Source: Gemmatimonadota bacterium (lineage in GTDB: Bacteria; Gemmatimonadota; Gemmatimonadetes; Gemmatimonadales; GWC2-71-9). Taken from it: a DNA stretch of 64,000 nt. The notes beneath the pieces are model-generated. The model made no database searches. It saw only the letters and a program-made list of their open reading frames with translations, and was not told where the DNA came from. Positions 53,405-56,374 of the stretch are shown here, piece by piece. Each line of letters opens with the position of its first letter. Within the stretch, counting starts at the first letter, position 1. The stretch is taken from positions 1 through 64,000 of the forward strand of contig QHTK01000042.1 in the NCBI GenBank assembly GCA_003220795.1. The letters run 5' to 3'. Position numbers and translations under genes: made by a program.

Positions 53405-56374
53405 GTGCCAGATCTTCGTCCCCTGCTCCAGGATGGACTCGCCGGCATCTACGCCGTCGAGCGGGAGGTGGGACGTGGCGGCATGGCGACGGTGTTTCTG
53501 GCGCACGACGTCAAGCACGATCGGCCGGTCGCCATCAAAGTGCTCCATCCCGAAGTGGCCGGCGCGCTCGGCGCCGACCGATTCCTTCGCGAGATCCGCA
53601 TCGCCGCGCACCTCCAGCACCCGCACATCCTGACCCTCATCGATTCGGGCGAGATTCCTCGCCCGGATCACATGGGCCCGAGCTTGCTCTACTACGTCAT
53701 GCCCTATGTGGAGGGGGAGAGCCTGCGGGAGCGTTTGACCCGCGAGGGCCGGCTGACGCCCACCGATACGGCCCGCATTCTCCAGGAGGTGCTGGATGCG
53801 CTGACACACGCCCACGGTCTGGGGATCGTGCACCGCGATATCAAGCCCGAGAACATCATGCTCAGCGGGCGGCACGCGCTGGTGATGGACTTTGGCGTGG
53901 CCAAGGCCGCCAGCGCCGCCGCGGCCAGCGCCAGCGCCGCCAGCGGCACGCTCACGGCGCTCGGCCTCGCGATCGGCACCCCGAACTACATGGCCCCGGA
54001 GCAGGCCGCGGGGATGGCCGCGGTAGATGCGCGTACCGACCTGTACGCCGTCGGGGTGATGGCTTACGAGATGCTTACCGGTCAAACGCCGTTCACGGGG
54101 ACGACGCCGCAGGCGATCCTCGCGGCGCACGTCACTCAGATGCCGCCGCCGATCGCAGCGCGGCGGCCCGATCTCGCCGCGCCTTTCGCGAGCGCGGTCA
54201 TGCGCTGCCTCGAGAAGGAGCCAGCGGCCCGTTGGCAGTCGGCCGAGGCGCTGCGGGCGCACATCGAGGCGTTCGCCACGCCGGGCAGCGGCGTGACCGC
54301 CCTAGCCGGTGGCGGCGGAGCAGGAGTGGTGCGCCGCCGACCCGCTGCGCTCCTCACGGCTGCACTTGTCGCGGTGGTGATCCTCGGCGCGGCGACTTGG
54401 TTCGGTCCGGGGCGGCGGGCGCGCGAACGACACTGGGCCCGGGAGCAGGGCATCCCCCAACTCCTGGCCCTCGCCGAGCTGGGCCTGTGGGACTCGGCCT
54501 ATACGCTGGCTCGGCGGGTCGAGGCCGCGAATCCCCGCGACTCGCTTTTCCGAGCGCTCCGGCCCAGGTTTGCGCGGCGGGTGAACTTGCACACCAATCC
54601 GCCGGGCGCTGCGGTGTGGCGAAAGGAGTATGCCGCACACGACTCCGGCTGGGTGCTGCTCGGGAAGACGCCGCTCGACAGCGTGCTGCTCTCGCTGAGC
54701 ATGAGCGGAGGATGGCTCAACGCAAACCGGCTGCGCGTCGAGCGGCCGGGGTATCGAACGCTCGAGCTCGTCGGCATGCCGTTCCGCGATTCGGTGATCA
54801 GGCTCGACCGGGACAGTGCGCTGCCCGCCGAGATGGTCAGGATCGCGGGCGGCGATCTCGACGTCTTCTACCCCGGTTTCGAGCACATCAAACCGATCCG
54901 GTTGGGCGACTATCTGATGGATCGGTTCGAGGTCACCAACCGCGAGTTCAAGCGCTTCGTGGACAGCGGTGGCTACCGGCGCCGCGAGCTCTGGGACCAA
55001 GCGTTCGTGCAGGGCGGTCGGGTCATTCCGTGGGAGCAGGCCATGGCTCGAATGACCGACCGGGCGGGCCGGCACGGGCCGTCTACCTGGGAAGCGGGCG
55101 AGTACCCGGCCGGCCAGGAGAATCACCCGGTCGCAGGAGTCAGCTGGTACGAGGCTGCGGCGTTCGCCAAGTTCAGCGGCAAGTCGCTGCCCACCGTGGC
55201 CCACTGGAATCACGCCGCCAGCGTGTACAACAGCGCCTGGATCGTCCCGGCCAGCAATTTCTCCGGTCGGGGAACGGTCCCCGTCGGCACCACGCGCGGC
55301 ATCAGCGCATATGGGACCTACGACATGGCCGGGAACGTGCGCGAGTGGTGTCTTAACGCCAGCGGCGCCGACCGATTCATCCTGGGTGGTGGCTGGAACG
55401 ACGAGCCGTACCAGTTCACCGATGCCTACACGCAGGCGCCGTTCGACCGGTCGCCCACCAACGGCATTCGCCTGGTGAAGTACCTCGCCGCTGAGCCGAA
55501 CCTGGCAGCGGCGGGGGAGCCGTTGCAGCGCGCCTGGCGCGACTTCCTCAAGGCGCGGCCGGTGACGGACGCTGTGTTCGCCGCTTACCAGCAGATCTAC
55601 GCGTATGACCGGACCCCCCTTGCCGCGAAGGTGGTCGAGGCCGTGGACGAGGGGGACTGGACCCGAGAGCTGGTCCGCATGAACGCAGCGTACGCAGGGG
55701 ACAGTTTGCTCGTCTATCTGTATCTCCCCAAGCGCGGGCCCAAGCCGTATCCAGCCGTCGTCTACTTCCCGGGCTCCAACGCGATCCGTGACCACGCGCC
55801 GCAGAACCTGCAGGTGCGGGCCATTGATTTCGTCGTCAAGAGCGGCCGCGCGGTGCTGTATCCGGTATACAAGGGGACCTACCAGCGGAGCGATTCGCTC
55901 AATACCGACGTGCAGGACAGCTCCAACTTCTACCGTGACCACGTCGTGATGTGGGCGAAGGACCTGCGCCGAGCGGTCGACTACCTGGAGACCCGTCCGG
56001 AGGTCGCCACGGGGCGCCTGGGGTACTACGGCCTGAGCTGGGGCGGCGCCATGGGCGGGCTGCTACCGGCCGTCGAGCCGCGCATCAGGGTCAGCGTGCT
56101 CTACGTGGCCGGGCTCGATTTCGAGCCGGCGCGGCCCGAAGCGGACCCGATCAATTTCATACCGCGGATCAAGATTCCCACCGTCATGATCAACGGCAGG
56201 TACGATTTTTTCTTCCCGCTCGAGACCTCGCAAATCCCGATGTTTCGTCTGCTAGGCACACCGCCTGACCAAAAGCGGCACGTTGTGGAGGAGGGGAGCC
56301 ACTTCGTTCCGCGCGCGCGACTGATCCAGGAGGTCCTGACCTGGCTGGACAAATACCAGCCCACACCGCAGTAA
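53405..56374 (+). CDS. Ser/Thr kinase fused to a SUMF1/FGE-like domain and an alpha/beta hydrolase
   Basis: 989 residues. Kinase (about 12-280): GRGGMATVFLAHD, Lys in VAIKVLHP, HRDIKPENIML (about 143), DFGVAK, an Ala/Ser-rich insert AASAAAASASAASG in the activation segment, GTPNYMAPEQ. A membrane helix (about 315-335, LLTAALVAVVILGAATW), a PEGA-like segment (VNLHTNPPGAAVW), a SUMF1/FGE-like domain (about 470-700: VTNREFKRFV, HPVAGVSWYEAAAF, DMAGNVREWC, GGGWND) lacking the catalytic Cys pair of true formylglycine enzymes, and an alpha/beta hydrolase (about 735-989) with nucleophile Ser in YGLSWGG (about 876), Asp in GRYDFFFP and His in EEGSHF. The extracytoplasmic part should hydrolyse an ester or peptide. 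Start is GTG at 53405 after AGGACA. Confidence 0.9.
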   Translation: MPDLRPLLQDGLAGIYAVEREVGRGGMATVFLAHDVKHDRPVAIKVLHPEVAGALGADRFLREIRIAAHLQHPHILTLIDSGEIPRPDHMGPSLLYYVMPYVEGESLRERLTREGRLTPTDTARILQEVLDALTHAHGLGIVHRDIKPENIMLSGRHALVMDFGVAKAASAAAASASAASGTLTALGLAIGTPNYMAPEQAAGMAAVDARTDLYAVGVMAYEMLTGQTPFTGTTPQAILAAHVTQMPPPIAARRPDLAAPFASAVMRCLEKEPAARWQSAEALRAHIEAFATPGSGVTALAGGGGAGVVRRRPAALLTAALVAVVILGAATWFGPGRRARERHWAREQGIPQLLALAELGLWDSAYTLARRVEAANPRDSLFRALRPRFARRVNLHTNPPGAAVWRKEYAAHDSGWVLLGKTPLDSVLLSLSMSGGWLNANRLRVERPGYRTLELVGMPFRDSVIRLDRDSALPAEMVRIAGGDLDVFYPGFEHIKPIRLGDYLMDRFEVTNREFKRFVDSGGYRRRELWDQAFVQGGRVIPWEQAMARMTDRAGRHGPSTWEAGEYPAGQENHPVAGVSWYEAAAFAKFSGKSLPTVAHWNHAASVYNSAWIVPASNFSGRGTVPVGTTRGISAYGTYDMAGNVREWCLNASGADRFILGGGWNDEPYQFTDAYTQAPFDRSPTNGIRLVKYLAAEPNLAAAGEPLQRAWRDFLKARPVTDAVFAAYQQIYAYDRTPLAAKVVEAVDEGDWTRELVRMNAAYAGDSLLVYLYLPKRGPKPYPAVVYFPGSNAIRDHAPQNLQVRAIDFVVKSGRAVLYPVYKGTYQRSDSLNTDVQDSSNFYRDHVVMWAKDLRRAVDYLETRPEVATGRLGYYGLSWGGAMGGLLPAVEPRIRVSVLYVAGLDFEPARPEADPINFIPRIKIPTVMINGRYDFFFPLETSQIPMFRLLGTPPDQKRHVVEEGSHFVPRARLIQEVLTWLDKYQPTPQ

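Follow-up and report, generated by a model that had tools for sequence, protein, structure and literature searches.

The window, the 64,000-nucleotide stretch of soil-bacterium DNA analysed here, carries on its forward strand an open reading frame that runs, with no internal stop, from a GTG at 53405 to the stop codon at 56372-56374 and encodes 989 amino acids (Table 1). The VPD(L/V) start of the protein is retained in the relatives L005 and L006, which are 84-86% identical to it. Pfam places three domains along the chain, in the order Pkinase (aa 16-284, E 4e-48), FGE-sulfatase (aa 475-651, E 2e-27) and dienelactone hydrolase (DLH; aa 770-940, E 2e-5, just above the cut-off). This domain search, together with the alignment, bears out the first-pass annotation of the gene as a kinase-SUMF1-hydrolase fusion, in which kinase, membrane helix, FGE domain and hydrolase occupy one frame. 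Judged from its sequence, the gene most likely encodes a single-chain membrane signalling protein, with the kinase inside and the FGE and hydrolase domains outside.

Table 1. Features of the kinase-FGE-hydrolase gene (positions in the window)
Feature	Position	Strand	Residues and remarks	Basis
Whole gene	53405..56374	+	989 aa, GTG start, stop included	
PknB-type Ser/Thr kinase domain	53450..54274	+	aa 16-290	Pfam E 4e-48; PDB phmmer PknB E 2e-54; alignment
Single transmembrane helix	54347..54403	+	aa 315-333	hydropathy scan
Helical juxtamembrane segment	54416..54589	+	aa 338-395	three helices, AF2 model mcdf9a680ec3e
PEGA-like beta region	54590..54802	+	aa 396-466	strands in AF2 model; Pfam PEGA in homologs
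SUMF1/FGE-fold domain	54815..55474	+	aa 471-690, no catalytic Cys pair	Pfam; PDB profile; Foldseek 5nyy, 24% id; alignment
Alpha/beta hydrolase domain	55559..56371	+	aa 719-989, CE7 acetyl-xylan-esterase-like fold	Pfam DLH; PDB profile; AF2; Foldseek
Putative nucleophile	56036..56038	+	Ser878 (GLSWG elbow)	108/108 homologs covering it; directly after strand beta5 in model
Putative acid	56204..56206	+	Asp934 (NGRYDF)	invariant, 107/107
Putative triad histidine	56300..56302	+	His966	invariant, 108/108

Receptor-like kinases abound in this region of the window: less than 20 kb from the gene lie three more of the PknB type, with TPR repeats, at 42297-44549, 47313-49562 and 59334-61589 (minus strand). 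Divergent from the gene, with 116 bp between the two starts, is a gene for a DUF2911 protein with a signal-peptide-like start (52752-53288, minus strand).

Kinase, membrane helix and outer domains

The kinase is complete, as had been annotated: the G-loop, K45, H143-R144-D145, D162-F163-G164 and A197-P198-E199 are all present, and by phmmer against the PDB its closest solved relatives are PknB kinases. The annotated membrane helix is likewise recovered by the hydropathy scan, which finds one hydrophobic helix and none farther out; by the same measure, exactly one helix separates kinase and outer half in 75 of 77 kinase-type homologs. The topology given here follows from hydropathy, together with the N-termini resembling signal peptides in the split hydrolases described below. 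Beyond the helix, the juxtamembrane and PEGA-like parts come from a first AlphaFold2 run on 14 sequences, whose model was poor (pLDDT 69). The PEGA-like part proposed earlier holds in homologs, where Pfam PEGA scores above the cut-off at the matching place in L099 and L176, but it goes unscored in the window protein. Pfam detects no PASTA repeats in the protein, and the PknB_PASTA_kin model covers the kinase part only, below the cut-off. Thus, although the protein resembles PASTA-type receptor kinases (PknB, PrkC, Stk1) in having a PknB-like kinase predicted to be cytoplasmic, one membrane helix and an outer sensor, it lacks their repeats and has an FGE domain plus an enzyme as its outer half.

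The first outer domain matches FGE and SUMF2 in PDB profile searches, and Foldseek aligns it with T. curvata FGE (5nyy, 24% identity). As the first-pass annotation had noted, this FGE fold comes without the catalytic Cys pair: sequence and alignment place no Cys at aa 650-692, and the pair is missing in almost all homologs, three of which contain two Cys that are scattered and do not make up the motif. The domain shares with FGE (SUMF1) and pFGE/SUMF2 a fold, as judged by PDB profile matches; it differs from FGE in the missing pair and in showing no sign of sulfatase maturation, and in the missing pair it resembles SUMF2, the inactive paralog. Published work assigns FGE domains to the C-type lectins, as one subtype of that ligand-binding fold (PMC10907252). 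Several other roles were considered and rejected: sulfatase maturation, because the Cys pair is absent; ergothioneine/EgtB chemistry, as the EgtB and SenA models match the FGE part only, far below the cut-off; and a DGR-diversified FGE sensor, as the window's own assembly (92% complete) contains no RVT_1.

The start of the hydrolase domain was set from split secreted homologs. Ser878, Asp934 and His966 are invariant in every homolog covering them (Table 1) and belong to the 18 invariant columns among 96 FGE+hydrolase sequences; in profile alignments they match the triads of solved esterases. The earlier description of a hydrolase with Ser, Asp and His thus stands, with a triad in canonical order and a GxSxG nucleophile. 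AlphaFold2 modelled aa 466-989 with 96 homologs, FGE and hydrolase together, at pLDDT 95.9 and pTM 0.92 (model ma00028d2e9fd); because the joint model reaches these values, the two domains appear to have a defined mutual arrangement and can be modelled as one unit. A model in which the three residues could not form a triad had been named as one outcome that would refute the first-pass reading. The prediction does not turn out that way: in this confident model they follow the strands in the canonical way, S878 directly after 402-412 (beta5), D934 after 461-466 (beta7) and H966 after 492-497 (beta8), and the predicted active-site geometry is read from these positions along the modelled fold.

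By Foldseek, the hydrolase is closest to acetyl xylan esterases and cephalosporin C deacetylases (CE7) and to the cold-active esterase 4ao8, with probability 1.00 and TM-scores to the target of 0.64-0.80 for the closest matches. The likeness lies in the alpha/beta hydrolase fold and the Ser-Asp-His order; identity is only 14-19%, and the window hydrolase differs in being membrane-bound and fused and in having no match to the AXE1 Pfam model, which only a split homolog (L163) matches, at E 3e-7. Because its Pfam and PDB profile matches are scattered over the DLH, S9, PETase and lipase families, no substrate class can be named. We predict from these data that it is a working serine hydrolase of the CE7/esterase type.

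Distribution, inner modules and the two-gene form

A genome scan for the outer half recovered 18 relatives, in metagenome-assembled genomes of Gemmatimonadota and Acidobacteriota, with a few in bins labelled Proteobacteria. In whole-genome searches the outer half was present in 57 of the 298 sampled genomes from Gemmatimonadota and in 33 of the 297 from Acidobacteriota, and rare in two further phyla (1/200 and 4/193). The search of other genomes that the first-pass annotation had proposed therefore found the same architecture in two phyla and many assemblies. Several genomes hold 3-7 copies of the family. At L117-L120, six or more large PknB-type kinases, several FGE-hydrolase kinases among them, form tandem clusters with the same gene order in two genomes. 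Beside Acidobacteriota copies, at L117 (6389-9052 and 12065-14743) and L014 (9678-13214), lie TonB-dependent-receptor-like outer-membrane barrels (OMP_b-brl_4 with CarboxypepD_reg), which may hint that the sensed compound is taken up. Plasmid-borne relatives were also sought and set aside, the one match being a weak FGE match in Vibrio; a role in anti-phage defence was rejected, the PADLOC matches listed covering the kinase domain only.

One might suspect that assembly or annotation has fused neighbouring genes, or that a frameshift is involved, and in some family copies elsewhere the frame is indeed broken or divided, through frame changes, internal deletions or perhaps sequencing errors (L083 2588-4517, L084 3659-6222, L121 8233-11189). 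Against this, the identical fusion recurs across many independent assemblies, including the single-contig genomes G023, G064, G098 and G182, and the window frame, free of internal stops, has a dN/dS of 0.13-0.15 over the whole gene. This conservation refutes such an origin, and the recurrence in dozens of independent assemblies, together with dN/dS values of 0.09-0.15, excludes chance. With the three closest relatives left out, identity is 39-59% for the FGE domain, 38-53% for the hydrolase and 33-58% for the kinase, so that the outer half has diverged no more than the kinase. Measured against the closest relatives, the kinase has a dN/dS of 0.13-0.15 and the hydrolase one of 0.09, which makes the hydrolase, by this measure, the domain under the strongest constraint.

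The inner module varies. Of the 87 homologs that were classified, 74 have a kinase, three a BTAD/SARP domain (L058, L060 and L059, the last cut at a contig end and grouping with the other two), one an OmpR/CadC-type winged helix (Trans_reg_C; L099) and nine a helical anchor. Anchor homologs (L052, L054, L070-L075, L127, L080) have an N-terminus of 2-3 predicted helices and no known output. On a tree of the FGE+hydrolase part, the inner-module labels need six changes, at least four of which, for the anchor type, are forced by well-supported branches; on this tree a kinase protein sits next to the winged-helix protein, with support 95. Such a pattern is what one expects of an exchangeable input module.

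The FGE proteins of the family that lack a hydrolase provide a further configuration. They occupy seven loci in five genera of Gemmatimonadota, four with a kinase (L163-L166) and three with a helical anchor (L174-L176), and at all seven a related hydrolase gene lies directly downstream on the same strand; at L166, the stop of the FGE gene and the start of the hydrolase gene overlap as ATGA. The first-pass proposal to look beside the fusion had a mixed outcome: across the flanks scanned, the fused form has no common partner gene and no pathway is indicated, whereas the split FGE genes do adjoin one. The split hydrolases retain S, D and H and have N-termini that, judged by eye, resemble signal peptides; because of these starts, we place the hydrolase outside the cytoplasm. 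The fused hydrolases group apart from the split ones (support 99 and 100). Behind one kinase-FGE gene, at L164, two secreted-type hydrolase genes follow each other (1043-2050 and 2054-3040). Since the hydrolase-less loci have an adjoining hydrolase gene, FGE receptor and hydrolase remain partners, in one chain or in two. FGE domain and hydrolase thus most likely cooperate outside the membrane, as an input module that would bind and cut a ligand.

Proposed mechanism and competing readings

We think it fairly probable that the protein is a one-piece transmembrane receptor, whose outer FGE and hydrolase domains bind and hydrolyse an environmental compound and so set the inner kinase. In our model, the periplasmic half would be a rigid unit, with a non-catalytic domain of the FGE fold next to a working alpha/beta serine hydrolase. 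It would bind and hydrolyse an ester- or amide-bearing compound; binding or turnover would change the outer half, or its pairing, and the change would pass through the single membrane helix to set the PknB-type kinase inside. The same outer half would serve SARP/BTAD or CadC-like DNA-binding domains in relatives, while in a sister lineage the hydrolase would be a separate secreted protein encoded beside the FGE receptor. The receptor role is strengthened, at the level of gene architecture, by relatives in which the outer half is joined to a different signalling output, and by the two-gene form. The first-pass interpretation, that the outer domains bind and cut a ligand while the kinase reports it, survives as to one polypeptide with kinase inside and FGE and hydrolase outside; the anchor-only homologs do not fit a model in which a kinase alone reports. 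A stronger version, which we hold to be possible but doubtful, makes catalysis itself the signal: the attack by Ser878 on the ligand (an acyl-enzyme or product state) would switch the joined FGE and hydrolase domains, and through them the kinase or transcription factor.

The main rival is a membrane-tethered scavenging enzyme, a surface hydrolase whose N-terminal part is mostly an anchor and whose kinase is functionally independent. It is favoured by the anchor-only members, which have 2-3 helices but lack any known domain in the cytoplasm, and three Acidobacteriota copies have TonB-dependent-receptor-like genes as neighbours, a hint at nutrient uptake; some anchor-only members (n=9) may indeed be simple tethered enzymes. 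For the family, we consider it unlikely, as signalling outputs dominate the classified homologs, the kinase motifs are retained and under constraint, and the inert FGE domain is always kept next to the hydrolase.

A binding-only receptor, whose triad would be maintained to bind the ligand while turnover is slow or has no bearing on signalling, would agree with the constant presence of an FGE domain, a fold used in ligand binding, and with the fact that no substrate is known for the hydrolase. The strict invariance of all three catalytic residues, and the retention of this triad by the separate secreted hydrolases of the two-gene form, fit catalysis better and make this reading rather improbable. 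Control could also run from the inside out, the kinase or other inner module governing the outer hydrolase, and with kinase and enzyme in one chain sequence alone sets no direction. Yet the DNA-binding inner modules (L058, L060, L099) make sense as outputs and not as regulators of an enzyme, and PknB- and ToxR/CadC-type proteins generally signal inwards, so that we regard inside-out control as very unlikely.

Known relatives and significance

Fusions of a kinase with an SUMF1/FGE domain (DUF323/NirV) have been noted in Chlamydia (PMC1262709), and single-span Ser/Thr kinases of Planctomycetota carry a periplasmic SUMF1, the third most common extra domain in kinases there (PMC11032199). The present family shares with both a Ser/Thr kinase joined to an FGE-fold domain, which in Planctomycetota lies outside a single membrane helix, but adds the hydrolase, a domain that a term search of the main text of these two papers did not return; nor did we find output swapping or a split hydrolase operon described. 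An architecture survey lists prolyl-oligopeptidase-type hydrolases with regulator or FGE domains (PMC4522959). In plants, KAI2, an alpha/beta hydrolase with a triad, has been proposed to be both receptor and enzyme (PMC11874195); KAI2/D14 may offer a mechanistic analogy only, those being soluble plant proteins. In the freely accessible literature searched, we found no description of a fusion of kinase or regulator, FGE and hydrolase. Kinases with a periplasmic SUMF1 are therefore already known, whereas the hydrolase-bearing, output-swapping family appears to be undescribed; what is new here beyond the first-pass annotation is the output swapping and the split receptor/hydrolase form.

Outside the PASTA class, few bacterial receptor kinases have a known ligand. 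A sensor with an intact predicted active site would make its ligand class searchable by enzyme assay or activity-based probes, and testable by one residue change. The output swap and the natural split into receptor and secreted enzyme would act as built-in controls, and the winged-helix homolog would provide a readable promoter output. The non-catalytic SUMF1 domains common in bacterial kinases would gain a function that can be put to the test, that of an enzyme's binding partner. The occurrence of this outer-half module across a kinase, DNA-binding proteins and a bare anchor suggests that bacteria may sense a compound by binding and cutting it. If catalysis itself is the signal, these proteins would be transmembrane enzyme-receptors, a bacterial family with one input module passed around between unrelated outputs.
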